From the NCBI RefSeq assembly GCF_900115285.1, contig NZ_FOYW01000003.1, positions 62,001 to 126,000 on the forward strand: a stretch of DNA of 64,000 bases, written 5' to 3'. How positions within the stretch are numbered: position 1 is the stretch's first letter; each line of letters opens with the position of its first letter. The translations under genes were made by a program, and so were the position numbers. Shown one piece after another: positions 2,506 through 26,656 of the stretch. Under the pieces are notes generated by a model, which was not told the origin of the DNA, did not search any database, and worked only from the letters and a program-made list of their open reading frames with translations. The stretch comes from Marinobacter daqiaonensis (lineage in GTDB: Bacteria; Pseudomonadota; Gammaproteobacteria; Pseudomonadales; Oleiphilaceae).

Positions 2506-2528
2506 CAATGGGGCTCCGCTAAACGGGA

Positions 2529-2550
2529 AACGCCTCCCGAAGGAGGCGTT
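2529..2550. terminator. Bidirectional stem-loop between convergent genes
   Basis: A perfect 9-bp stem (aacgcctcc / ggaggcgtt) with a cgaa tetraloop lies between the MAPEG gene and a small minus-strand gene. On the minus strand the downstream side is rich in T (gtttcccgttt), so it may work best for the minus-strand gene. Confidence 0.6.
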
Positions 2551-2571
2551 GTCGAGCCCTGATCCGCAGGG

Positions 2572-2775
2572 TTACACCATCAGCGCAAGCCCCGACGATT
2601 CCCGCTCCAAAAGTTCCTCGCTCCGTTCCAGCCGGGGCTGTGTTTCGGCTGGGATCCTGTTTTCGGGTTGCATTACCCTGGCCTGTTCCACTGGCACCTC
2701 CCTGTTGGCCTGGGCCGCTTCGAGAGCTGCTGCGCGGGCAATCAGCTCCGGCCTATCCAGTACTAGTACGGTCAT
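2572..2775 (-). CDS. Small hypothetical protein (67 aa)
   Basis: The frame begins with an ATG behind a convincing ribosome-binding site (aaggaacg) and encodes a charged, alanine- and glutamate-rich protein (MTVLVLDRPEL...RLERSEELLERESSGLALMV). There is no signal peptide or membrane helix. The middle (ARAAALEAAQANREVPVEQARV) is likely helical. I recognise no family. Support for it being real comes from the ribosome-binding site, the stem-loop just past its stop, and the free upstream region. It stands alone, with 267 bases to the divergent rhomboid gene. Confidence 0.5.
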   Translation of the reverse strand: MTVLVLDRPELIARAAALEAAQANREVPVEQARVMQPENRIPAETQPRLERSEELLERESSGLALMV

Positions 2776-3042
2776 GTCACGTTCCTTATATTATTGGGTC
2801 AGGCTATTGTTCTTATGCCCGCATACTATCGTTTGTCCCCGGGGGCTTGGCAACACCTTGTTGCCATTCGGGAAGGTGCGCCCCCACCGCTCTGCTGATT
2901 GAATGGCATTGCCGTGACATCTGTATGACATGCGCTGTTCCTCGTTCTCGTGGGTTCATGCTTATTACAGCGGGAAAAGCTGGCCCTGCTGTGTTAAAAC
3001 CCGATCAGGAAACCGATCAATTGTGCGCAATAGTGGCCGCCG

Positions 3043-4491
3043 ATGCTGATTATCCCCGCTGAAAAAAGCCTGGACTGGAAGAACCCGCCCTGGATGACCC
3101 TGGCGCTGATGCTGGCTTGCCTGGTTATTTTTGTGTTCTACCAGGGCAAGGACCCCAGGCTCCTGCACACGGCCGTCCAGCACTATCTGGATCAGGGGCT
3201 TGACCGGTTGGAAGCGCCGATCTACGAGACTTACCTGGAGCGGGAAATCCGGCTGGAAGGAGAGGCGGATCGGAGGACGGACCTCGAGGCCTTCCGTGAG
3301 ACTGTGGCGGCTGGCGAGCGGGCCAGTCTTGCAGTGACCATGCTGATGGATCGACCGTTCTTCGACTACCTGCTGGCCAACCGCGACCTGCTGATGAATG
3401 GGCGGCAACGGCAGTACTGGACCGAGGCTCGTGTTCCCATCCAGCAAAACCTGATCAATGAGATCAGTGCCTATGAGGCGGGGCTGGTGCCCGCGGAGCC
3501 AAGTCTCTACACCCTGGTGTCGTACCAGTTCCTCCACGGGGGCTGGGGCCATCTGATCGGCAACCTGGTCTTCCTGTTCCTGTTGGGATTCACGGTGGAG
3601 AAGGCTCTCGGGCCCGGGCGTTATCTGTTGGCCTATCTGATGTGCGGGGTCTTCTCGGCGCTGATCTACACGGGATTTTCCTGGGGCAGCAAGATTCCGC
3701 TGGTGGGCGCGTCCGGGTCGATCTCAGGACTGATGGGAATGTACGTCGCCTTCTTTGGAATGCGCCGGATCCGGTTCTTCTATTTCCTGGGGGTGTATTT
3801 CAACTACTTCCGGGCGCCGGCCCTTGCCATCCTGCCAGTGTGGATCGGCAAGGAGCTCTACGATTACTGGGCGGCCGGGTCCACGGGTATTGCCTACATG
3901 GCCCATGCCGGCGGCCTGGTGGCTGGTGCAGGGCTGATCCTGCTGCTGGGCAAGGGCTGGTTCCAGGCCCGGGAGGCCTTCCATGAACCGGAGCAGGAGG
4001 AGCAGGACCGGCAGTTTACCCATGACTACGCCGATGCCATGGAGGCCCTGGCGCGAATGGATTTCACTCTTGCCAGGAAACGGTTCGAAGCCCTCTGGCG
4101 GGACTATCCCGACCGGCCGGTCGTCCTGGAGCATCTTTACCAACTCGCCAAGCTGCGTCCGGACCTGGCGGAGTACCGACAGCGGACCCGTGAGCTGCTT
4201 AACCAGTATCTGAAGCTGCAACAGCCCGACAACCTCCTGCGCACCTGGCAGGAATATCTGGAACTGGGCGAAGCTATCCATCCCCTGGAGGCCGAGGAAC
4301 ATAACCGGGTACTGTTCGCGGCTTTGCGCCAGGATGACCTGAAGGTCGCTGAAAAAGCCTTTGCCCGGGTAAGGGATACCGGCCACCGGGAGCTTGTTCG
4401 GGAGGCAGGCAGGCTCCTGGCGGACGAATTCGGTAAACGGCGAATGGAACCCAAGGCCAACGAGTACCGGCTGCTGCTCAAAACACTGTAA
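3043..4491 (+). CDS. Rhomboid-family intramembrane serine protease with C-terminal TPR-like region
   Basis: A 482-residue inner-membrane protease. The core (about 150-305) carries HGGWGHLIGN (H165, H170, N174) in the second helix, the catalytic serine S224 in GASGSISG, and the catalytic histidine H288 in AHAGG. The first membrane helix (about 18-33) is separated from the core by about 115 mostly soluble residues (35-150), an unusually long loop. After the last helix, about 165 residues (315-482) form charged helices with paired repeats (ALARMDFTLARKRFEALWRDYPD) resembling TPRs, presumably cytoplasmic and recruiting a partner. It is monocistronic, with a 334-bp gap downstream. The substrate is unknown. 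Confidence 0.88.
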   Translation: MLIIPAEKSLDWKNPPWMTLALMLACLVIFVFYQGKDPRLLHTAVQHYLDQGLDRLEAPIYETYLEREIRLEGEADRRTDLEAFRETVAAGERASLAVTMLMDRPFFDYLLANRDLLMNGRQRQYWTEARVPIQQNLINEISAYEAGLVPAEPSLYTLVSYQFLHGGWGHLIGNLVFLFLLGFTVEKALGPGRYLLAYLMCGVFSALIYTGFSWGSKIPLVGASGSISGLMGMYVAFFGMRRIRFFYFLGVYFNYFRAPALAILPVWIGKELYDYWAAGSTGIAYMAHAGGLVAGAGLILLLGKGWFQAREAFHEPEQEEQDRQFTHDYADAMEALARMDFTLARKRFEALWRDYPDRPVVLEHLYQLAKLRPDLAEYRQRTRELLNQYLKLQQPDNLLRTWQEYLELGEAIHPLEAEEHNRVLFAALRQDDLKVAEKAFARVRDTGHRELVREAGRLLADEFGKRRMEPKANEYRLLLKTL

Positions 4492-4825
4492 GCCGACGTG
4501 GGGGCGGTTTCATCAGCCGGTTCATTTCCCCTGGATCGTCCGTCCCCTGAACCGGTCAGTTCCGCTTTCCGTACATTGGTGTATTGTCGCTTTTATTTAC
4601 AAATTATTGAAATTGTTGAATAAAAGTATTTTCGGCCGAATTTTGTTTCGATGGGGGCATGACAGACGCGCACTGAATAAGGCATTATTTCTGACGATTT
4701 TCCGCTCGCTGGTTTCTGCTGGGCGGAACCGTATTCCACAACCGTGACACTGGCAGCACAGTAACTCCTCGACAACATGCCTGATCGATATCTCGCAGGC
4801 CGGTGCTGCCCCAAGGAGAGCAAGC
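4492..4825. other. 334-bp intergenic region, AT-rich centre
   Basis: No gene is seen. An 8-bp inverted repeat (ccggttca at 4517-4524, tgaaccgg at 4548-4555) with a 23-base loop could weakly terminate the rhomboid transcript. The stretch 4585-4690 is clearly AT-rich against its surroundings and probably holds the promoter of the acyl-CoA dehydrogenase pair, but I could not fix a convincing -35/-10 pair. A strong ribosome-binding site (aaggaga) precedes the ATG at 4826. Confidence 0.5.
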
Positions 4826-6004
4826 ATGACTGATCTGGATACCTTCCGTCAGGAAACCCGGGCATGGCTTGAAGAGAACTGCCCCCAGAGCATGCGTTCC
4901 CCCTTCGGCAGCGAAAAAGAAGTCTGCTGGGGTGGCCGCAATTTCAAGTTCTACAGCGAAGACCAGCGCCTGTGGCTGGAGCGTATGGCGGAGAAAGGCT
5001 GGACAGCGCCGGACTGGCCCACGGAATACGGCGGTGGCGGTCTGAGCCGTGCCGAGCACAAGATTCTGCTGGAAGAAATGGCCCGCATCCAGGCTCGCCC
5101 CCCACTGAACAGCTTCGGTATCTGGATGATCGGTCCGGCCATTCTCAAGTTCGGTTCCGAGGCCCTCAAGCAGCAGCATCTGCCGCCCATCGTGCGCGGA
5201 GAGATCCGCTGGTGTCAGGGTTATTCCGAGCCAGGTGCCGGCTCTGATCTTGCCGGTCTGCAGACCAAAGCCGAGGACAGGGGCGACCACTTCATCGTCA
5301 ATGGTCAGAAGATCTGGACCTCCTATGCCGACAGGGCCGACTGGATGTTCGCCCTTGTGCGGACCAATCCGGACGTCAAGAAACAGGAAGGCATCAGCCT
5401 GGTGCTGTTCGACATGGAGACTCCCGGAGTTTCCACCCGTCCCATCAAGCTGATCTCCGGCGAATCCCCCTTCTGTGAAACCTTCCTGGATGATGTCCGG
5501 GTCGAGAAGGACCAGGTGGTGGGTGAAGTGGACAAGGGCTGGACCATTGCCAAGTACCTGTTGACCCACGAGCGCAGCATGATCGGCAACATGGGCAGCA
5601 CCGCCGCCGGCCAGAAGACCCTGCCACAGCTGGCGGCCAGTGCCGTTGGTCTGCAGGACGGCAAGCTGGCGGACACGATGCTCCGTGCTGAAGTGGCATC
5701 CTGGACCATCGACTCCATCGGCTACGAGCTGACGGCAGAGCGGGCAAGGGACGAAGCCAAGGCTGGCCAGGGCGTGGGTAATGTTTCCGCCATGCTGAAA
5801 TACGCCGGTACCGAACTGAACAAGCGTCGTTACGAGTTGCTGGTTGCCGCTTATGGCAGCGAAGGCCTGATCTGGGAGGGTGACAGCCGCCCCGCCGGCG
5901 CACTGCCCCAGCAATGGCTGCGCACGAAGGGCAACTCCATCGAAGGCGGTACCTCTGAGGTTCAGCTGAACATCATCGCCAAAAACATTCTCGGACTTGG
6001 CTAA
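4826..6004 (+). CDS. Acyl-CoA dehydrogenase, probable catalytic subunit of a two-gene enzyme
   Basis: A 392-residue FAD-dependent acyl-CoA dehydrogenase (first oxidation step of beta-oxidation or a related CoA-ester pathway). The flavin/substrate motif YSEPGAGSD is intact, followed by QKIWTSYADRADW, and the C-terminal IEGGTSEVQLNIIAKNILGLG closes the all-helical domain. The glutamate found in MCAD-type enzymes (YEGT) is replaced, since the sequence reads IEGGTS. A glutamate in HERSMIGN sits where isovaleryl-CoA-type enzymes keep theirs. Fourteen bases downstream lies a second, more degenerate dehydrogenase, so the pair may form a heteromeric complex like those acting on steroid or branched CoA esters. 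The substrate is not determinable. Confidence 0.88.
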   Translation: MTDLDTFRQETRAWLEENCPQSMRSPFGSEKEVCWGGRNFKFYSEDQRLWLERMAEKGWTAPDWPTEYGGGGLSRAEHKILLEEMARIQARPPLNSFGIWMIGPAILKFGSEALKQQHLPPIVRGEIRWCQGYSEPGAGSDLAGLQTKAEDRGDHFIVNGQKIWTSYADRADWMFALVRTNPDVKKQEGISLVLFDMETPGVSTRPIKLISGESPFCETFLDDVRVEKDQVVGEVDKGWTIAKYLLTHERSMIGNMGSTAAGQKTLPQLAASAVGLQDGKLADTMLRAEVASWTIDSIGYELTAERARDEAKAGQGVGNVSAMLKYAGTELNKRRYELLVAAYGSEGLIWEGDSRPAGALPQQWLRTKGNSIEGGTSEVQLNIIAKNILGLG

Positions 6005-13110: not shown

Positions 13111-16100
13111 TCAGGCCGCCACCGTCAGCTGGTTCCGTCCGTTCGCCTTGGACTTGTACAATGCCTTGTCAGCCCGCCTGATCAGCTTCTCGGGATCCAC
13201 GTGGGAGGCGTCCGCGGTAACCAGACCAAGACTGACGGTGACCCCGAGGATCTCGTCATCAACCCGCACCTGATGTCGTTCAATGGCCTTGCGGATCCGC
13301 TCCGCCACCATGGCCGCTTCCTCCTTCCCGGCGCCGGGAAGAATGAGTACCATTTCCTCCCCGCCATAACGGGCGGCCGTATCGTTCTCCCGGGAGTTCG
13401 CCTTGATCAGGTCAGCCACTTCACGCAGCACCTGGTCTCCGAGCTGGTGACCCCAGGTGTCATTGAACTGCTTGAAATGGTCGATATCCAGCAGCACCAG
13501 GGACATCTCCCGGTCATAGCGGGCCACGCTCGCCAGTTCCTGCCGCAGCATATTCTGGAAGTAGTCGTGGTTGAAAAGGTTGGTCAGCCCATCCACCGCC
13601 GCCTTCCGGGACAGCTCCAGACGACCGGCCGCCGCCACGGCGATGATCTCCAGTGCGCCTATTCTCGCCTCCGTGAAACAGTTGCTGATGTGATTGTTTT
13701 CCAGGTACAGCAGGCCAGTGAGGGCCCTGTCCTTGCCCTTGCCGATGGCAATGGGCAGGCAGAGAATCGAGCGCACCCGCTCCCGCAGGATATATTCCTC
13801 GCGGTCGAGTCCGGGCACGCCGCTGTTGACGGCCAGGGCGTCGGCAACCACAACGCTCTCCATGGTCCGGCTGACGTAATTGATGGTGGCCTGGGAGACG
13901 GATTCGCACTGTTCGAGCGGGGAAGACTGCAGGATGACGGTTTCCTGGAGGTCCACGGAAGCCTCCGCCTCGATGCGTAGCCTGCCGTCGCCGTCCCGCA
14001 GTGCGAGGACTCCCCGCTGCGCACCAGCGAACTCCATGGCAATGTCGATGATGGCCGCCACCATCCGGCTGTGGATCTGCTCGTCGGCGATGGCCCTCAG
14101 GGCCTTCATCAGCGACGTCATGTCCACCTCAGCCATGGCCATGGCCCGGGTGCCGGCCAGGGTTACGGAGCGCCGTTCGCCGGCCTGGTCGGGATAGAGC
14201 TGTTCCAGTTGTCGCACCTTGGCGATCGCGCCCCATCGCTGGTAGAGATCCCGCGCCTTTGCGAGGTAGGGCATGGCGATGGTGATGCGGCCTGCGTTCA
14301 TGTGCATCCGACCACACAGTTCACTGGCCAGAGCCTGCTCACTCAGGAAGCCGTGTTCACGTGACAGCTCGATAGACCTGTCGAACGCCTCGTGGGCTTC
14401 AAACTCCCTGCCCTCGACCCTGAGCAGCTCCGCCTTGCATAACTCGTGCTTGTTAGGCGTATTGAACGGGTCCGTCTTTCGTCGCCGGGCCATGGCCCGG
14501 AGCTCCTTCCGGACCCCCTTGACCAGCTTCCGGGCCTGCCGGGAACCCTTGCTGTTGCCTGCACTGCGCAGGTACACGAGTACCGCTATAAAGGATGTCC
14601 AGCGCCCCCCGTAGAAACCCTGAACGCCGGACACCGTGGACCCCATGTGCTCGGCGATTTCCTGTGCCCGGTGGGTTCCGGTGTCGTCACCGAACAGGTA
14701 GCTCAGGTACATACTCCTGGCAAGCACCTGGTCTGAAAGGGCGAAGTCCTTGGCGGCCTGATGCCGGGGCAGCATCTCATCGATGTTGTAATGTTCGCCC
14801 ACCAGCCTGGCGGGATTCCGGGACAGGCCCCGGAGGTTTTGCAGCATCTGAAGCCGGGAATCCTGGTGGTACAGCATGGCCCCCATATGAAGTGCCCGGA
14901 ACTCGGCAAGATGATGGCTGGTGAGGTTTTCAATTCGCGACAGCTCCTCACCAGCGGCGAACATGGACTCTTCCAGGATGTTGGAGGCATGCACGGCATA
15001 CTCGAAATCGCCATTGTCCATGCAGTACCGGGCCCCCAGCCGGAGACTCTCGTAGGTGTTCTGGAGGGGTTCCTTCCAGTGCTGGATCACGGACCCGTAA
15101 AGATGCTGGGCGCGCCCCCGGCGGCTGTTGAACCGGTCGCTCAGCTCAATGCCCAATCTGCCCAGCGCAACCCCGGTATCGGGATCGTTCATGGACTCGG
15201 CAAACATCATGCCGATAATGGAAAAGGCGGTGGTGGTTTCCGGGCTGTGGCCATGATCCAGGGAGATCTCGGCACCTTTGAGGCACAGCAATGGCAACAG
15301 CATCGGCTCCGCGAACATAGCCGCGCTGCCGATACTGGCCCCGATACGACAGGCGGCCCGGTGCTCGGGAGACGTCATGTCCGGCAGATCCTTCACCGTT
15401 GCCAGGTTCAGTGTCTTCAGGCGGCTCCTGAACTTCAGGAAACGGAGCACAACCTGGAACTTCTTCGGATGACGGTTGTAACGATGACCCAGTTTGTTCA
15501 GCAGCGGCAGCGCGATATCGATCGCCTTTTCCAGTTCTCCCTGGGTGATGCAATGGCCGATCTCGATTTCATGGAAGGTGACCCGGCTGAGGAGGTCGCG
15601 GGCGTTCGCCAGGCCGGAATCAACAAAAATTCTCAGGGCCCGGTGATCGCCAATGTGGGCGGCGGCCTCCGCGGCGGCCCCGAAGGCGCTCAGGGCCAGG
15701 GCATAGTCATTCTCCCAGGGACGGTCGCCAAGCAGCAGGATGGCGCGCTGGAAATGACTGTAGGCAATGGGATAAGACGCGGCCTGCCTGGCCCGGTGAC
15801 CGGCTTCCAGGTTGAGGCGGCAGAGCTCGCGTTTTTCTTCCGGGTCGTCAATGAGTGCGGACGCCGTATTCAGGTGTGTGACAATGGAGAACAGGCCGTC
15901 CTTGCGGTCCGCCGCATTGAGGTTGCGCAGCATTTGTCGGCCGATCTCGAGATGCGCCGCCAGACGTGTGCGCTCGTCCACCAGGTTGTAGGCGGTCTCC
16001 TGGATCCGGTCGTGGTTGAAGGCAAACTGGACCGTGATCCTGCCGGCATCCGTGCTCTGTTCCACCTCGGTAAGCTGGTAGGCATCACGGATGGGTGTTA

Positions 16101-18096
16101 TCAGCCCCTCAAGAATCGGCTCATGGAGCGCCTCGGCCACTTTGGCGGGCGACATCTCCGCAATCAGCGACAGAACTGACAGGGAAAAGCGGTTACCGGC
16201 GCAGGAGGCGAGTCGCAGGAGTCTCAGGCTCGTTTCCGGTAACCGTTCCAGTTTGCGGGTCATCAGCTGGGCGACATTGTCTGTTATCTGCTGCTGGGTC
16301 AGGGTGGCAATGTCCCAGACCCAGCGGCCCTGCATCGGGTCGAAAGTGATGTTGCCCCGGCTGTGCTGGTCCTTGAGAAATTCCTCCACAAAAAAAGGAT
16401 TTCCCTCCGTTTTCTGATGGATTATCCGGGCCAGGGGCTCCACCTCGGTATGGCTGGTCATCAGGGTATCCGCCAGCAGCCGGCAGATATCCGGTACGGC
16501 AAGCGGTCCGAGGTCAATGTGGGTCAGGAAGACATCGGCGTCCTGCATCTGCTGGAGGGCTTTGAGCAGGGGGTGGTCCGGCGTTACCTCGTTGTCCCGG
16601 TAGGCGCCGACCACCAACAGACGGTCCCCTTCGATCTGGTCCACCAGCAGGTCAGCCAGCCGCATGGTACTGCTGTCGGCCCACTGCAGGTCATCCAGTA
16701 CCAGTACCAGGGGGTGATCCGCCTGGCTGAACACCCGGATAAAGTTGAACAGGGTCAGGCGAAAGCGTTGTTCAGCCTCGGTTGCTCCCGCCGGGGAAAC
16801 GGGCGGCTGAGGCCCCATGATCAGCTCCAGCTCCGGCAGCAGTTCAGTCATCAGGGCGCCGTTGGGCCCAAGGGCGTCCTCCAGCCTGCCTTTCCAGTAG
16901 GCGAGCCGGTCATTGCTCTCCGTGAGTATCTGTTGCACCAGGTCTCTCAGGGCCACCACCAGGCCGCTGTAGGGAATGTCCCGCTGTACCAGGTCGAACT
17001 TTCCCGAAATAAAGTAGCCCCGCCGCGCAGTGACGGGCTTGTGCAGCTCATTGATCAGGCTGCTTTTGCCAATCCCGGAACGGCCGGCCACCAGGGCCAG
17101 GGATACCTGGTCGTAGGCGGCTTCAAAGGCCGCGAGCAGTTCCGCAACCTGTTTTTCCCGACCATAGAGGCGCTGGGGAATCCGGAAATGATCAGGAATA
17201 TCCCGGCGTGCCAGGGGAAAGTCCGCTATGGCGGCGGTGGCGTTGAGCTGTCGATAGCACTCCCTCAGGTCGTGGAGCAGCCCGGTGGCACTCTGGTAGC
17301 GCTGTTCCGCGGTCTTCGAGAGGAGTTTCATGATCAGGTCGGACAGGACCCGGGGGATGTTGCTGTTCAGGTCCGCGGGCGCCACGGGTGTTCGGGCAAT
17401 GTGGCAGTGGAACCACTCGATGGGGGACTCGGCGGTAAACAGCGGACGTCCGGTTACCAGTTCGTAGAGGGTCGCTCCCAGGGAGTAGAAGTCTGACCGG
17501 GAGTCCACGGAGCGGTTCATGCGCCCGGTCTGCTCAGGCGACATGTATCCAGGCGTACCAGGCACCGATGTGGCGGCCATCATGGTCGCCTGTTCGGTGG
17601 TGTAGCGGGAGGCAATGCCGAAATCCACCAGGCGAATGGCACTGGTTTTGGGGTTGACGATGATATTGGCCGGATTGACGTCCTTGTGGATGATGCCGGC
17701 CCTGTGAACATTCCTCAGGGCCGTGGTGATGGCAACGGCAACGCCCACGCAGGCCTTCAGGGCCGGTCGCCGGTGGGCAAACAGGTGATCCAGGGACTGG
17801 CCGCCAATGTCCTCCAGGACCAGGGCCGGCAGGTCCTGGATACGGGTCTGCTGGTGGAGAGCAATGATATTGTCCCCCGCCAGCTCCGCGAGCACCTCGG
17901 CTTCATGGAGCAGCATGGCGATGTTTTCACGGCTGGCCTGGTCCGGCCTCAGGGTCTTGATGATGACCGGCTGCTGGTCGGACTCGCGGGTTGCCCGGTA
18001 GATCCGGGTGGCGCCGCCGTCGGCAATCTGCTCCCCCAGGCGGTAGCCAGCCGGAGAGTCGATGGGGGTGTGGGAGGCCTTGGTGCTCACCGCCAT
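13111..18096 (-). CDS. Ser/Thr kinase - AAA ATPase - GAF - GGDEF fusion (1661 aa)
   Basis: A giant multidomain signalling protein. Residues 17-280 form a Hanks-type kinase with lysine K47 (VIIKTL), HKD (137-139) with N144, and DFG (158-160), apparently complete. Residues 310-600 are an AAA/ORC-like ATPase with Walker A GRSGIGKS (338-345) and LVLDDLQWAD as Walker B, as in AcyA/MalT-type ATPases. A long helical-repeat region (about 650-1300) follows. A GAF domain lies near 1340-1480. The C-terminus is a diguanylate cyclase with DIDHFKQFNDTWGH and the active-site variant GGEEM near 1575. The start at 18096 has ggagag before it. It would couple protein phosphorylation and ligand sensing to c-di-GMP synthesis. 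No membrane helix is seen. Confidence 0.88.
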   Translation of the reverse strand: MAVSTKASHTPIDSPAGYRLGEQIADGGATRIYRATRESDQQPVIIKTLRPDQASRENIAMLLHEAEVLAELAGDNIIALHQQTRIQDLPALVLEDIGGQSLDHLFAHRRPALKACVGVAVAITTALRNVHRAGIIHKDVNPANIIVNPKTSAIRLVDFGIASRYTTEQATMMAATSVPGTPGYMSPEQTGRMNRSVDSRSDFYSLGATLYELVTGRPLFTAESPIEWFHCHIARTPVAPADLNSNIPRVLSDLIMKLLSKTAEQRYQSATGLLHDLRECYRQLNATAAIADFPLARRDIPDHFRIPQRLYGREKQVAELLAAFEAAYDQVSLALVAGRSGIGKSSLINELHKPVTARRGYFISGKFDLVQRDIPYSGLVVALRDLVQQILTESNDRLAYWKGRLEDALGPNGALMTELLPELELIMGPQPPVSPAGATEAEQRFRLTLFNFIRVFSQADHPLVLVLDDLQWADSSTMRLADLLVDQIEGDRLLVVGAYRDNEVTPDHPLLKALQQMQDADVFLTHIDLGPLAVPDICRLLADTLMTSHTEVEPLARIIHQKTEGNPFFVEEFLKDQHSRGNITFDPMQGRWVWDIATLTQQQITDNVAQLMTRKLERLPETSLRLLRLASCAGNRFSLSVLSLIAEMSPAKVAEALHEPILEGLITPIRDAYQLTEVEQSTDAGRITVQFAFNHDRIQETAYNLVDERTRLAAHLEIGRQMLRNLNAADRKDGLFSIVTHLNTASALIDDPEEKRELCRLNLEAGHRARQAASYPIAYSHFQRAILLLGDRPWENDYALALSAFGAAAEAAAHIGDHRALRIFVDSGLANARDLLSRVTFHEIEIGHCITQGELEKAIDIALPLLNKLGHRYNRHPKKFQVVLRFLKFRSRLKTLNLATVKDLPDMTSPEHRAACRIGASIGSAAMFAEPMLLPLLCLKGAEISLDHGHSPETTTAFSIIGMMFAESMNDPDTGVALGRLGIELSDRFNSRRGRAQHLYGSVIQHWKEPLQNTYESLRLGARYCMDNGDFEYAVHASNILEESMFAAGEELSRIENLTSHHLAEFRALHMGAMLYHQDSRLQMLQNLRGLSRNPARLVGEHYNIDEMLPRHQAAKDFALSDQVLARSMYLSYLFGDDTGTHRAQEIAEHMGSTVSGVQGFYGGRWTSFIAVLVYLRSAGNSKGSRQARKLVKGVRKELRAMARRRKTDPFNTPNKHELCKAELLRVEGREFEAHEAFDRSIELSREHGFLSEQALASELCGRMHMNAGRITIAMPYLAKARDLYQRWGAIAKVRQLEQLYPDQAGERRSVTLAGTRAMAMAEVDMTSLMKALRAIADEQIHSRMVAAIIDIAMEFAGAQRGVLALRDGDGRLRIEAEASVDLQETVILQSSPLEQCESVSQATINYVSRTMESVVVADALAVNSGVPGLDREEYILRERVRSILCLPIAIGKGKDRALTGLLYLENNHISNCFTEARIGALEIIAVAAAGRLELSRKAAVDGLTNLFNHDYFQNMLRQELASVARYDREMSLVLLDIDHFKQFNDTWGHQLGDQVLREVADLIKANSRENDTAARYGGEEMVLILPGAGKEEAAMVAERIRKAIERHQVRVDDEILGVTVSLGLVTADASHVDPEKLIRRADKALYKSKANGRNQLTVAA

Positions 18097-18413: not shown

Positions 18414-21173
18414 ATGTCGAATGACGGAAGCAGTAACGACAGTTACAACACCCTTTCCAGCCTGGACGTGGATGGCAAGACCTACCACTACTACAGCCTG
18501 CCCAAGGCCCAGGAAGGATTGGGTGACCTCAACAGGATGCCCTTCTCACTCAAGGTGCTCACCGAGAACCTGCTACGTTTTGAAGACGGCGAGACGGTGG
18601 AGAAAAAGCACCTGGAGGCCATGGCGCAATGGCTGAAGGATCGCCGGTCCGACACCGAGATCCAGTTCCGGCCGGCCCGCGTCCTGATGCAGGACTTCAC
18701 CGGCGTGCCCGGCGTGGTGGACCTCGCGGCAATGCGCGAAGCCGTCGAGAAGGCAGGCAAGGACCCGGCCATTATCAATCCCCTCTCCCCCGTGGACCTG
18801 GTTATCGACCACTCGGTGATGGTGGACAACTTCGGCGACTCGTCCGCATTCAGGGACAATGTCACCATCGAGATGGAGCGCAACCAGGAGCGCTACGAGT
18901 TTCTGCGTTGGGGGCAGCAGGCCTTCGACAATTTCAGTGTGGTGCCACCGGGTACCGGCATCTGTCACCAGGTGAACCTGGAGTACCTCGGCCGGACGGT
19001 CTGGAGCAAGGAGCAGGGGGGTAAAACCTTCGCCTACCCCGATACGCTGGTGGGTACTGATTCCCATACCACCATGATCAATGGGCTGGGTATCCTCGGC
19101 TGGGGCGTGGGCGGCATTGAGGCCGAGGCCGCCATGCTCGGCCAGCCCGTCTCCATGCTGATCCCCGAGGTGGTGGGCTTCAAGGTCACCGGCAAGCTCC
19201 GGGAGGGCATCACCGCCACCGACCTGGTCCTCACCGTTACCGAAATGCTCCGCAAGAAAGGGGTCGTGGGGAAGTTCGTGGAATTCTATGGCGACGGCCT
19301 CAAGGACATGCCAGTGGCGGACCGGGCCACCATCGCCAACATGGCGCCCGAATACGGCGCAACCTGTGGCTTCTTCCCGGTGGACGAACAGACCATCAGG
19401 TACATGCGCCTGACCGGTCGTGAGGAGCACCAGCTCGAGCTGGTGGAAGCCTATGCCAGAGCCCAGGGACTATGGCGTGAACCGGGCCACGAACCGATCT
19501 ATAGCGACACCCTGGAACTGGATATGGGTGAGGTGGAAGCCAGCCTCGCCGGGCCCAAGCGGCCCCAGGACCGGGTCGCCCTGAGGAACATGAAGTCCTC
19601 TTTTGAGCTGCTGATGGAGACCGCCGAGGGCCCCAACGGCCAGCGCAAGGACAAACTGGAGTCCGAAGGCGGACAAACGGCAGTGGGGATCGACGACAGC
19701 TTCGAGCACCATGCCAGCCAGCACGGAGAGCTTGAAGGCGAGAAATTCCGCCTGGATCCCGGCGCGGTGGTGATCGCCGCCATCACGTCCTGCACCAACA
19801 CCTCCAACCCCAGCGTGATGATGGCCGCCGGCCTCATCGCCCGCAAGGCGGTTGAAAAGGGACTGACCACCAAGCCCTGGGTAAAGACCTCTCTGGCGCC
19901 TGGTTCCAAGGTGGTAACCGACTACCTGAAAGTGGCCGGTCTTGACGATGATCTGGACAAGCTGGGCTTCAACCTGGTGGGCTACGGCTGCACCACCTGT
20001 ATCGGCAACTCCGGCCCGCTGCCGGAAGCGGTGGAAAAGGCCATTTCCGAGGGGGATCTCACGGTAGCCTCGGTACTCTCCGGCAACCGCAACTTCGAGG
20101 GCCGGGTTCACCCGATGGTGAAAACCAACTGGCTGGCCTCGCCGCCTCTGGTGGTGGCTTTCGCCCTGGCGGGCAACGTCCGTCTGGATCTCACCAAAGA
20201 GCCACTGGGCAAGGATAAAGATGGCAACCCGGTCTACCTGAAGGACCTGTGGCCTTCCCAGGCCGAAATCGCCGAGGCGGTGGAAAAGGTCAAGACGGAC
20301 ATGTTCCGCAAGGAATATGCCGAAGTCTTCGACGGCGATGAGACCTGGCAGGCTATCAAGGTGCCCCAGAGCAAGGTATACGAGTGGTCCGACAAGTCCA
20401 CCTACATCCAGCATCCGCCCTTCTTCGAGGGCCTCGGACCGGAGCCGGACGACATCAGCGATATCAGGGACGCCCATATCCTGGCCCTGCTGGGGGACTC
20501 GGTAACCACTGACCATATTTCCCCGGCCGGCTCCTTCAAGGCCGACACCCCCGCCGGCAAGTACCTGCAGGAGCACGGTGTCGAGCCGAAGGATTTCAAT
20601 TCCTATGGCTCCCGTCGGGGCAACCACGAGGTCATGATGCGGGGCACCTTTGCCAATGTGCGCATCAGGAACGAGATGCTGGATGGTGTCGAGGGTGGCT
20701 TTACCCGGCATGTGCCTTCCGGAGAACAGATGCCCATCTATGATGCCGCCATGAAGTACCAGAAGGATGACACGCCGCTGGTGGTCATCGCCGGCAAGGA
20801 ATACGGCACCGGTTCAAGCCGGGACTGGGCCGCCAAGGGCACCCGCCTGCTGGGGGTGAAAGCCGTGGTGGCGGAATCCTACGAGCGGATCCACCGCTCC
20901 AACCTGATCGGCATGGGGGTCATGCCCCTGCAGTTCCCGGAGGGCGTGGATCGCAAGAGCCTGAAGCTTACCGGCGAGGAAACCATCAGCATTGAGGGGC
21001 TCTCCGGCGATATCCAGCCGGGGCAGACCCTGAAAATGACGGTCACCTACAAGGATGGCAGCACCGAAACCTGCGACCTGAAGTCACGGATCGATACCGC
21101 CAACGAGGCGGTCTACTACCGCCACGGCGGCATCCTGCACTACGTGGTGCGGGAGATGATCAAGGCGGCCTGA
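18414..21173 (+). CDS. acnA: Aconitate hydratase A
   Basis: A 919-residue aconitase of the AcnA/IRP type, isomerising citrate to isocitrate in the TCA and glyoxylate cycles. The three [4Fe-4S] ligands are C460 ([11 protein letters not shown]) and C526/C529 ([10 protein letters not shown]). The substrate-binding arginines lie in [12 protein letters not shown] and [10 protein letters not shown]. The order is that of a full-length AcnA (catalytic domains 1-3, then the swivel domain at the C-terminus). It is monocistronic behind a strong ribosome-binding site. A prpD/prpC context is absent, which argues against an AcnD assignment. Confidence 0.96.
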
Positions 21174-23055: not shown

Positions 23056-23238
23056 CTTTCCGTAGTCCTGCTACTGATGATCGGCTTCCATCGCTGCCTT
23101 CCTGAGCCAGACCCGTCGCAACAATTCTTCACCATCAGTAACGATCCATTGCTGCAAGTTTTCGTAAAAGCGTGACATCTTATTGGAAAGGCAGCCGTTA
23201 AACGGTGGGTCTTGCTGTTACCGGGTGGATGCTGACGA

Positions 23239-23886
23239 TTGAATACCCATACCCTGAAGTTCTCCCTGCCACGGCGGCTGCTGGCGACGGCCTTCGTGCT
23301 GCTGATAGCGGCTGCGGTCCTGGCACTGCCCTGGCTGCCAGCGGTGATGGATCGTGACGATTTTTACGGCCTTCGGGTCGATCTTCCCGCCGAACCGTTG
23401 CCGGGTCCCGGCGGCGAGCCGCTGACTACGCCCGAGGGCAGTCTGGATGTGGTGTTTTTTGGCTTCCAGCACTGCAACTCGGTCTGTCCCGCCCGGATGC
23501 TCAATCTGATGACCCTTCATCGCCGACTATCCTCTGCTCCGGTGCGGTTCGTGTTTGTTTCCCTGGACCCGGAGCGGGATAGTGGCGAGTCGCTCGAAAA
23601 TGCCATGGCCACAATGGGGCCCACCTTCCTGGCGGTGCGTCCGGAAACCGGGCAGCAGGCCAGGCAGCTGGCCAGTCGTTATCACGATTACAGCAGCCGC
23701 AACGGCATGGGGGACGGATATGACATCGAGCATTCCGGCCACCTGCATGTTGTCTCCAGCCGGGGGCGGCGGGAGTTGCTCTATACCTCCAGGGAGCTTG
23801 ATCTCGACCGGGTTGTGGCGGATTTGCGCCAGCTATTGTCATCCGTCCCTGCGGGGACATCGGAGATTGCACTGAATGACCACTGA
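23239..23886 (+). CDS. SCO1/SenC-family copper-binding thioredoxin-like protein
   Basis: A 215-residue membrane-anchored periplasmic protein. One N-terminal helix ([19 protein letters not shown]) precedes a thioredoxin fold with the copper-binding CxxxC (C79, C83 in QHCNSVCP) and the conserved histidine in EHS (H165). Family members deliver copper to cytochrome oxidase or act as thiol redox proteins. A TTG start at 23239 is used because a stop lies two codons upstream and the next in-frame ATG would delete the anchor. No oxidase genes adjoin it; instead its end overlaps the following chemoreceptor by 11 bases, implying coupled expression. Confidence 0.82.
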
Positions 23887-25384
23887 AAACAATCACGCAC
23901 ACAAGGACGCCTTGCGCACGGATCGCCAGATGTTGTGGATTCTGCTGGCCCATGTGCCGGTGGTTGCCTTCCTGGTGCCATTGGGATTCGGGACCCACGG
24001 TTTTGCGATCCTTGCCTCCCTTGTTGTGGGTGGAATCGTGCTTGGCGCCTACCTGTCACTTCGCGGTAGCCGCGGATTCTCACTGGTGGCCGCAGCCGCG
24101 CTGATGGGATTTTCCGCGATTATGATCCAGTCCCAGATGGGACGGATCGAGATGCATTTTCACATTTTCAGCGCCCTGGCCCTGGTAATCATCTATCGCG
24201 ACTGGCTGCCGATACTGGTGGGTGCGGGTGTGATCGCGGTGCATCACCTGGCCCTGACCGGTCTCCAGTTATCCGGCGCTACGCTTGGCGACATGCCCGT
24301 AATGATCTACAACTATGGCTGCAGCTGGCCCATCGCTTTCCTTCACGCTGCGTTTGTCGTGTTCGAAGCCGGCATCCTGGTGTTTTTCGCGGTCCGGCTC
24401 GGGCGTGAGCGCAGGATAAGCTACGACATGATGGATCTGGTGGGCCGTTTCCGTGATCAGCAGGATCTCAGCGGAAGGATTTCCGATAGCTCGGATGAGA
24501 GCGCACAGGCGTTCAACACCATGTTCGGTCAGTTCTCCGTGCTGATCCGGGAGGTGGCGGAGCTTTCCGCCCGCTTGAAAGACAGCGCCGGTTCCCTGAG
24601 CCACATGAGTGACACCACCCGGAGTATCCTCGATCAGCAGAGCAGCCAGCTTGATCAGGCCGCATCGGCAACGGAGCAGATGTCCGCCACGGTCCATGAG
24701 GTGGCGAGGAATGCCCAGCAGGCCTCGGAGTCTTCCGGTTCAGCCGCTGATGCGGCGCGTCTTGGCCAGCAGCGGGTCAAAGAAGCCGTGACGCTGACTG
24801 AGGCAACCGACACATCGATGGAAGAGTCTGCCGGAGCCGTCCAGCAGCTGATGGACAAAGTGAGCTCCATCAGTCGGGTGGTGGGCTCCATCGACGACAT
24901 TTCCGAGCAGACCAATCTGCTGGCCCTCAACGCAGCCATCGAGGCAGCACGGGCCGGCGAGCACGGCCGTGGTTTCGCGGTGGTGGCGGACGAGGTGCGC
25001 AACCTGTCCCGCCGCACCCAGGACTTCACCCGGGAAATCCGGGCCACCGTCGACGCGCTTGCTCAGGGGTCGGAGGGGGCTCTGGCGGCCATTGAGACCG
25101 GTCGGACCCGCTCGCGGCGTAACACCGAGGCCATACGAGAGACCGGCGAAGCCATCATTACCATTGAGCGGGCCATCGCGGAAGCGACGGACATGAGTTA
25201 CCAGATCGCCTCGGCGGCGGAGGAACAGGCGGCGGCCTCGTCCCAGATCAATGCCAGTGTCCAGGGCGTGGCCGGTCAGAATGGCGAGGTACTCCGTGAA
25301 GCCAATCAGGTCCGGGAGCTGGCGGTTGGGCTTGAGTCCCTGGTGGAAAGCATGAACCGGCTGGTGGCTGGTTACCGGATCTGA
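23876..25384 (+). CDS. Methyl-accepting chemotaxis protein with polytopic, histidine-containing membrane sensor
   Basis: A 502-residue chemoreceptor. Instead of the usual two helices around a periplasmic domain it has about six N-terminal helices (20-180). Membrane-face histidines occur in [19 protein letters not shown] (H94, H96) and AVHHL (H123, H124), a pattern shared with some membrane GGDEF proteins and receptors. There is a short HAMP-like linker, then the signalling domain with the conserved tip [20 protein letters not shown] and [15 protein letters not shown]. The overlapping SCO1-like gene suggests that it reports copper or redox state. That function is inference; the receptor class itself is certain. 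Confidence 0.9.
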
Positions 25385-25522: not shown

Positions 25523-26656
25523 ATGGAAGTACTGATTCTGGATGCGGACGTTCCGATTTCCGAATTGATGGAAACCCTGGTGTCCGGCCTGTTTTCCCGT
25601 CCGCGTATCCACAGTTATCGCAGTGTTGCCGATGCCCGCGCCAGCCTGGACGGGATCCGGCCAGACCTGGTCATTACAGAGTGGGACCTGCCTGATGGTC
25701 AGGGACTGGATCTTGTGCGGGCGGTCCGTCGCCTTGACCGCGACGTGCCGGTGCTGATGCTGTCCCATCGGGCCGATCGCGACCGTGTAGTGATGGCGGC
25801 GAAGTATCGTATCCAGGGTTTTGTGCCAAAGCCGTTCAGCGCCAATGCCATGCAGCAGCGCCTGCAGGCCCTGTTGCCTCAACACCGCGCTGCCGGCCCC
25901 GAGCAGAGCTTCGAGGCCATGTTGCGCAAGGCCAGCGAGACCCAGGTCTACCTGCCCATGGAGATGGATCCCGCCAGTGTCATGGCGCTGATCGAGCAGG
26001 CGGATTTCCTGTCGGCGGCCGATCTGTTCCGGGAGTGGCGCAACGAAGCCGCGCTGACCGCCCGCCTGCTTGATGTGGCCAACAGCAGTGCCTTCCGTCG
26101 CTCGGGGGAGCCCTGTGGCAGCCTGCAGGAAGCAGTGCGCCTGCTGGGGGTGCGCATGAGCCTGAACCACGCCCTGGCCCTCTCCCTTGATATTACCCAC
26201 CGCTTATCCGATCCCTACCTGCGGAAGCTTTCTGAAGAACATACCGGGAAATGCTATGAGCTGGCGGAACTGGCCGCCAGCATGGCGGCCAAGACCGGAG
26301 TTGAACCCGTTCCCTGTTATACCGCGGGCCTGCTGCACCGCATCGGTGAACTGGCGGTGATCAGCACCGCCCAGCAATTCATTGCGGCGAACGGTGCTCT
26401 GGAGAATGACGATGTGGACCTGGCCCTGCATCAGTGGAGCGGGCCCTTGGGCAACGTACTCAAGGTGGCCTGGCGTTTGCCGCTGCCGCTGCGCAACCTC
26501 ATTGGCGCCGCCTACCTGTTACCCCGGGGGAGTAGTGAGCGGGATCGGGTACTGATGCGTACCGCCTGGCTGCTGTGCAACAATCTGGAAACTGGCGAAG
26601 AGTGCTCACGCCTGTTGGCGCGGCTTGGGCTGGACGCAGCCGGCGCCCGGGCATAA
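25523..26656 (+). CDS. Receiver-HDOD signalling protein with Glu at the phosphorylation site
   Basis: A 377-residue cytoplasmic protein. Residues 1-120 are a receiver domain in which the phospho-acceptor aspartate is replaced by glutamate (E53 in LVITEWDLPDG) and the first acidic pair reads DAD; the conserved lysine K103 (PKPF) is kept. Residues 135-330 are an HDOD domain (AALTARLLDVANSSAFRRSG, GLLHRIGELAV), a non-catalytic relative of HD phosphohydrolases. The domain pair occurs in regulators of biofilm, c-di-GMP and chemotaxis. It lies 138 bp past the chemoreceptor on the same strand and is convergent with an HD-GYP gene. It is probably locked in an active-like state. Confidence 0.85.
   Translation: MEVLILDADVPISELMETLVSGLFSRPRIHSYRSVADARASLDGIRPDLVITEWDLPDGQGLDLVRAVRRLDRDVPVLMLSHRADRDRVVMAAKYRIQGFVPKPFSANAMQQRLQALLPQHRAAGPEQSFEAMLRKASETQVYLPMEMDPASVMALIEQADFLSAADLFREWRNEAALTARLLDVANSSAFRRSGEPCGSLQEAVRLLGVRMSLNHALALSLDITHRLSDPYLRKLSEEHTGKCYELAELAASMAAKTGVEPVPCYTAGLLHRIGELAVISTAQQFIAANGALENDDVDLALHQWSGPLGNVLKVAWRLPLPLRNLIGAAYLLPRGSSERDRVLMRTAWLLCNNLETGEECSRLLARLGLDAAGARA

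Follow-up and report, generated by a model that had tools for sequence, protein, structure and literature searches.

Organization of the SCO-chemoreceptor locus

The window, i.e. the whole stretch of 64,000 nucleotides of Marinobacter daqiaonensis DNA that was analysed, carries a gene for a SCO/SenC-family protein and, overlapping its end, a chemoreceptor gene. The pair, its putative expression signals and its neighbours are located as follows:

13111-18096, minus strand: 1661-aa protein that looks like a fusion of serine/threonine kinase, ATPase, GAF and GGDEF parts (domains assigned by eye)
18414-21173, plus strand: aconitase gene, upstream of the pair
23194..23201, plus strand: GCCGTTAA, possible sigma-28-type -10 box for the operon (weak, 3 mismatches)
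23239..23886, plus strand: SCO/SenC-family gene, TTG start, 215 aa with a single N-terminal hydrophobic segment (Pfam SCO1-SenC, E 2e-19)
23862..23865, plus strand: GGAG within the SCO gene, by its sequence the likely ribosome-binding site of the receptor gene
23876..23886, plus strand: overlap of SCO end and receptor start, 11 nt according to the ORF coordinates
23876..25384, plus strand: chemoreceptor gene, ATG start, 502 aa comprising a six-helix membrane sensor and an MCP signalling domain (Pfam MCPsignal, E 4.6e-42)
25523-26656, plus strand: response-regulator/HDOD gene, downstream of the pair

As the first-pass annotation of this DNA had stated, the SCO stop codon lies 11 bases inside the chemoreceptor frame, and both ORFs share positions 23876-23886. 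This overlap suggests that SCO and the receptor are co-translated. Overlaps recur in 37 of 71 upstream SCO-receptor pairs and comprise exactly 4 nt in 26 of the 71, with each frame mechanically taken to begin at its first start codon and an uneven sample, in which 23 pairs are from Marinobacter. Matches to what we take to be the sigma-28 consensus, with at most two mismatches, were found in 18 of 72 upstream regions compared with 2 of 72 shuffled ones (one shuffle each), many of the matching loci being from closely related Marinobacter. The best match in the window has three mismatches. These data are only suggestive of a sigma-28 control of the SCO-receptor operon.

In the window, aconitase is encoded upstream of the pair. 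Of 30 Marinobacter receptor loci inspected, 19 have it immediately downstream of the receptor, among them 9 of the 12 that lack SCO. The response-regulator/HDOD gene is also present at two other loci (L004, L005). Therefore, the locus has been rearranged.

The membrane sensor domain of the receptor

Chemoreceptors are mostly classified by their periplasmic ligand-binding domains. The window receptor has a signalling domain that matches PF00015 with 144.2 bits (cut-off 34.6), and its residues 1-200 have neither a Pfam match at E 0.1 nor an NCBIfam sensor-domain match. Therefore, receptors of this kind are recognized by these libraries only as MCPs. The AlphaFold2 model, computed from a 62-row alignment, comprises six helices (residues 2-33, 41-62, 66-86, 93-107, 110-132 and 151-195) with a mean pLDDT of 94 and does not contain a folded periplasmic domain. 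This agrees with the six-helix topology without periplasmic ligand domain that had been read from the sequence before. The histidines noticed at that time, HFH near 94-96 and HH near 123-124, are found at these places as His94, His96, His123 and His124. Among 30 aligned Marinobacter receptors, His26 and His157 are likewise invariant. The following features of the receptor are relevant:

23876..24475, plus strand: six-helix membrane sensor domain, residues 1-200 (no Pfam/NCBIfam match; AlphaFold2 pLDDT 94)
23951..23953, plus strand: His26, a conserved histidine in the periplasmic half of helix 1
24149..24163, plus strand: motif E92-M-H94-F-H96 at the periplasm-facing end of helix 4; H96 is characteristic of the SCO-linked sensors
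24242..24247, plus strand: His123-His124 in helix 5, each present in 138 of 140 loci
24320..24322, plus strand: Cys149, the sole cysteine of the receptor, in the periplasmic loop just before helix 6 and close to the His cluster; it tracks the presence of SCO
24344..24346, plus strand: His157 in helix 6 near its periplasmic end, His in 140 of 140 loci
24767..25273, plus strand: MCP signalling domain, Pfam match over residues 298-466

A cytoplasmic location of both receptor ends is suggested by the positive loops together with the C-terminal domain for signalling. Therefore, His26, Glu92, His94, His96, His123, His124, Cys149 and His157 would lie in the helix halves that face the periplasm or in periplasmic loops.

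A Foldseek search of the predicted domain against the PDB did not yield any match at E ≤0.001. The best VIA-align match was ImcA from Pseudomonas aeruginosa (8wcn), a six-helix diguanylate cyclase, with Z 11.5 and an rmsd of 3.7 over 179 residues. This Z score is higher than that of the next row (7.2), yet lower than the value of about 13 attainable by helical bundles through a common arrangement, and ImcA was absent from the PDB sequence-profile matches of the sensor domain. The iron response of ImcA runs through IsmP, according to the accessible part of the report (PMC10904736). Two PDB entries of a potassium channel that appeared in the sensor-domain profile search with E 0.14 and 0.2 were taken as chance matches.

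Distribution of the receptor and its SCO partner

Within Marinobacter, 41 of 100 genomes have a receptor match, one of which spans only residues 158-200, and just 20 of these 41 carry SCO beside the receptor. Among the matches listed, all 20 Marinobacter SCO proteins with E <1e-29 are encoded directly upstream of the receptor, and the next-best one (E 4e-17) is encoded elsewhere in its genome. In a scan with one genome per species, the best 80 of 211 loci were inspected with flanks of 4 kb each way where the contig was long enough. All of them have a chemoreceptor output except for one broken frame, and SCO is located directly upstream in 59 of the 80, in two cases as a degraded remnant in Thiorhodococcus. 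Hosts, in the majority aquatic bacteria, include Oceanospirillum, Thiomicrospira, Methylophaga, Agarivorans, Gilvimarinus, Sulfuricurvum (Campylobacterota) and Leptospiraceae (Spirochaetota). The sensor-domain superfamily as a whole was found in 25 of 369 genomes in a class-level survey and in 64 of 398 in a phylum-level survey.

Removal of duplicates left 142 loci, and 140 remained after L110 (broken receptor frame) and L150 (fragment) had been dropped. His96, as part of MHFH, is present in 102 and absent from 38 of these non-redundant loci. SCO is adjacent in 75 of the 102 His96 loci from three phyla, twice only as a remnant. It is located upstream in 73 of them, close to or overlapping the sensor gene, and, as seen in wider flanks, downstream in two (L181, L185); the downstream arrangement is documented by L256 and L257. 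For SCO-less His96 loci outside the best-80 set, the downstream sequence was covered up to a distance of about 1.5 kb from the sensor domain, with L254 and L255 as exceptions, so further downstream SCO genes could have been missed beyond this stretch. By contrast, only 3 of 77 His96-less matches from the class- and phylum-level surveys, all inspected with their flanks and some of them fragments or weak matches (e.g. L319, L335), have an adjacent SCO gene. Weak SCO-like ORFs at L287 (20 bits, 4.3 kb away), L291 (13 bits, opposite strand) and L335 (20 bits, about 1.9 kb away) were not counted. The adjacency of SCO and receptor is therefore above chance: 75/102 with His96 versus 3/77 without it. 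This means, the linkage suspected from the window alone is found in the majority of relatives with His96; in Marinobacter alone, it concerns 20 of 41 receptor-bearing genomes.

The three exceptions are L168 with an upstream SCO gene and L314 and L315 with a divergent one. L168 is a SCO-linked hybrid kinase with Phe at position 96 and Cys at position 26, L314 and L315 have Val at 96. The pairing does not strictly require His96, because these three loci have SCO without it. L168 represents a natural ligand swap (His26 to Cys, His96 to Phe). L314 and L315 are remote chemoreceptors; the divergent SCO gene is about 40 nt away at L315, and the ORF calls overlap at L314. The L315 receptor has a weak C-terminal match to the zinc-binding CZB domain below the cut-off.

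Most other positions are shared by both kinds of sensor. Glu92 (replaced by Asp in remoter rows), His94, His123/124 and His157 are found in nearly all rows with and without His96. E92 and H94 are present in 102/102 His96 loci and in 37/38 of the others, the remaining one being a gap. The conservation of the membrane histidines on which the first-pass annotation had built was borne out, as His94, His123, His124 and His157 are near-invariant over the 140 loci. Position 26 is a histidine in 63 of the 73 His96 loci with SCO and in 25 of the 29 without it, counted before two loci had been moved to the SCO-bearing group. The loci L298-L313 and L326-L334 (Pseudomonadota, mostly outside Gammaproteobacteria) form another branch of this domain. 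They mostly have Asp92 and either Tyr or Ala at position 96, some of them His26, and no adjacent SCO gene.

The sensor domain is not confined to chemoreceptors: SCO is also encoded beside hybrid histidine kinases with this domain (L258, L259, L168). At L254, a histidine kinase with the sensor domain (2509-3819) has no SCO, and a cation-efflux (CDF) gene follows 6 nt further on (3826-5037), a hint of metal sensing in this branch. When ORFs from 86 loci with 35 genus labels were clustered, using non-overlapping ORFs only, no neighbour except the receptor and SCO, whether related to copper or not, recurred in more than four genera.

The partner SCO proteins form their own branch

The window SCO matches PF02630 with 70.3 bits (cut-off 22.8), and the profile of the partner SCO proteins matches solved SCO structures (2k6v, E 3.1e-18). 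Two features of its gene represent the putative copper site:

23473..23487, plus strand: copper-site motif CxxxC at residues 79-83; its two Cys are kept in all 71 partner and all 40 ordinary SCO proteins compared
23731..23733, plus strand: copper-site His165; His in 71 of 71 partners, aligned with the His of 2k6v in the HMMER alignment

Cys79, Cys83 and His165, which we take to be a copper ligand, are present in all 71 compared partners, and Pro84 following the motif in just 53. An N-terminal hydrophobic segment was found in all 71. The upstream ORF of L105, a degraded remnant that lacks CxxxC, was excluded from this comparison. Such remnants precede intact receptor genes in two Thiorhodococcus species (L103:3611-3856 and L105:3484-3963) and are consistent with either a recent loss of the partner or assembly errors.

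In a tree of 71 partner and 40 ordinary SCO proteins, all partners group on one side of a branch with an SH-aLRT of 99. This was a quick tree with several long branches that omits L105 and four partners shorter than 150 aa, and the separation was somewhat favoured, because the partner rows came from partner-built profiles and the generic rows from the Pfam rank. The SCO protein encoded next to a RegB-family kinase (L215/L236) groups with the ordinary ones outside the partner clade. No MCP ORF was found within 1.5 kb of any of the 40 ordinary SCO loci. Receptor and partner-SCO distances correlate over 68 pairs (Mantel r 0.88, 0 of 2000 permutations as high), a value to which species history alone could contribute and from which the Mantel test does not separate coevolution. 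The genome of M. daqiaonensis encodes one other SCO protein beside COX15-CtaA and UbiA-family genes, by its neighbours an oxidase-assembly setting.

Cys149 follows the presence of SCO

The His96 loci comprise 68 with both SCO and Cys149, 7 with SCO only, 6 with Cys149 only and 21 with neither. When the Thiorhodococcus remnants are scored as SCO-absent, the numbers are 66, 7, 8 and 21. In a core clade of 92 rows, defined after the table had been seen by subtraction of ten divergent rows from the 102, they are 66, 0, 6 and 20: All seven SCO-bearing His96 loci without Cys149 are outside this clade. When phylogeny was counted, 8-9 independent pairs differed in SCO; Cys149 changed in the same way in about five of them and in the opposite way in none. 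With a median p of 0.0625 in the sign test, the association is consistent, yet falls short of significance once phylogeny is taken into account, and a co-change of Cys149 and SCO on the tree is suggestive only. L016, Thiocystis and Thiorhodococcus have Cys149 without an intact SCO gene. This may mean that SCO was lost first and Cys149 afterwards.

Comparison with known systems

The nearest precedent for the gene pair is SenC beside RegB. In the SenC/PrrC-RegB/PrrB systems of the Rhodobacter group, a SCO-family protein is, as in the window, encoded with a membrane redox sensor. RegB has six membrane helices, and a SCO gene beside a six-helix sensor gene is a feature common to both systems. In contrast to the chemoreceptor found here, RegB has a kinase/response-regulator output, and the membrane parts of its family carry a GGxxNPF loop where the window receptor has the His cluster. 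A comparison of 20 RegB-family membrane parts (11 above and 9 below the NCBIfam cut-off) with the sensor-domain alignment by hhalign yielded a probability of 6.4 over 34 columns, i.e. no detectable homology of the membrane parts. In the accessible part of PMC9147068, regA and/or regB of group 1 are described as invariably cotranscribed with senC.

MHYT domains are described, in the text available, as membrane sensors with His/Met near the periplasmic face that are combined with several outputs, which resembles the situation here. For one such His/Met membrane sensor, MHYT-CoxC, CO sensing needs copper, and the accessible part of the same source does not describe a SCO partner (PMC11347149). 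MHYT (PF03707) differs from the window receptor by seven helices with three MHYT motifs. For the latter, six helices are predicted and PF03707 is not matched at E ≤0.1, which speaks against an MHYT domain.

The plant ethylene receptor ETR1 has three helices, a Cys/His pair and a kinase-type output. Both fold and ligands differ from those of the window receptor, and the carriers are plant proteins. According to the available text, ETR1 has a copper cofactor in its membrane sensor domain, for which protein carriers deliver the copper (PMC6586836, PMC6656775). A copper chemoreceptor that uses Cys and His is McpR from Caulobacter. It is predicted to be cytoplasmic without a membrane domain, and a SCO partner is not described in the accessible part of the report (PMC10579534). 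In Pseudomonas putida, copper and chemotaxis are reported to be linked via CsoR and CheA (PMC11978298, accessible part).

The first-pass annotation had regarded the pairing as undescribed. This view may hold for chemoreceptors: No SCO-chemoreceptor pair was described among the matches listed in a literature search that covered full-text literature and few subscription papers. It does not hold for sensors in general, since SenC-RegB is a known SCO-sensor pairing in the accessible text of PMC9147068.

Proposed function and alternative explanations

SCO and the six-helix multi-histidine sensor are established as a conserved two-gene module with a SCO protein of a distinct branch. Its SCO copper site is intact, and ligand-type residues of the sensor cluster on the side facing the periplasm. 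The comparative evidence makes a functional coupling of both proteins near certain. A neighbourhood by chance or hitch-hiking without any functional tie could only invoke the absence of SCO in some lineages; it is contradicted by all pairing counts of the survey and has almost no probability.

The preferred reading, with a probability of roughly 0.5, is that SCO serves the receptor by loading or setting copper at a periplasm-facing His/Cys site, which would thus be a copper-binding site. According to this proposal, SCO would be anchored in the inner membrane, face the periplasm and be dedicated to the receptor. It would carry Cu(I) through CxxxC and His and hand it over, probably via Cys149 of the receptor. 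The copper site would be formed by histidines at the periplasmic end (from His26, His94, His96, His123/124 and His157) and by Glu92. When loaded, this site would act as the sensor that responds to a change in copper occupancy, in the copper redox state or in a copper-bound gas. The change would shift helix 6, in the AlphaFold2 model one helix from residue 151 to 195, which would extend unbroken towards the cytoplasmic signalling part. This shift would in turn alter the activity of CheA or, in the histidine-kinase relatives, the kinase activity. Copper binding, the transfer of copper or electrons via Cys149, the stimulus, the direction of taxis and the movement of helix 6 are what we infer; copper, redox or respiratory state are plausible stimuli. 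His26 and His96 persist in SCO-less receptors, hence the His site does not presuppose a linked SCO.

A different division of labour can be modelled on the redox-relay idea for SenC/PrrC and RegB/PrrB. SCO would itself detect periplasmic copper or oxidants via CxxxC and dock on Cys149 or swap thiols with it, and the membrane histidines would form a docking face or bind something else. Cys149 as the only cysteine of the window receptor, which follows SCO closer than the histidines do, would suit such a relay, and SenC is a copper-binding protein that resembles thiol-disulphide oxidoreductases (PMC9147068, accessible part). However, the bias of the pairing towards His96 (75/102 versus 3/77) is left unexplained, and His165 is as invariant as the two cysteines although a purely thiol role would not need it. 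A relay of this kind is rather unlikely, but to be taken seriously. Much less probable is that the His cluster binds a b-type haem and SCO just keeps the site or a thiol reduced. The membrane histidines are conserved, and the archaeal aerotaxis receptor HtrVIII, with six helices, has been proposed as a haem binder (PMC13401364, accessible part). Yet a dedicated SCO protein with an intact Cys-Cys-His site suits copper better, the conserved ligands are confined to the periplasmic half in the model with the proposed topology, and no other neighbour gene recurs in more than four genera.

It is also quite improbable that SCO works for cytochrome oxidase or a different cuproprotein and just shares its expression with a receptor that senses something unrelated. 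The classical role of SCO proteins and the 27 of 102 His96 receptors without a SCO found alongside can be counted in favour of this explanation. Against it, the partner SCO proteins form a clade of their own, the second SCO of the genome is already in an oxidase-assembly setting, and the pairing extends over three phyla, occurs in more than one gene order and is not accompanied by a recurrent oxidase gene.

With copper loading by SCO as the preferred reading, a wider proposal can be made tentatively, at slightly less than even odds: The receptors may belong to a new family of copper-cofactor membrane sensors, mostly equipped with their own SCO-type metallochaperone, that occurs both in chemoreceptors and in hybrid histidine kinases and uses copper to detect oxygen, CO, NO or the periplasmic redox state. 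The many homologues that lack both His96 and SCO would then represent a copper-free or SCO-independent branch.

Concluding remarks

The window receptor appears to sense within the membrane, helped by a copper chaperone. If this is true, a branch of SCO proteins has a job beyond oxidase assembly, namely as a chaperone devoted to a receptor and not to an enzyme, and the SenC-RegB link has a counterpart in chemotaxis. It would also become directly testable whether a gas or redox sensor built around copper guides the movement of bacteria. Through its kinase outputs, the module would carry this reading over to other kinds of signalling.
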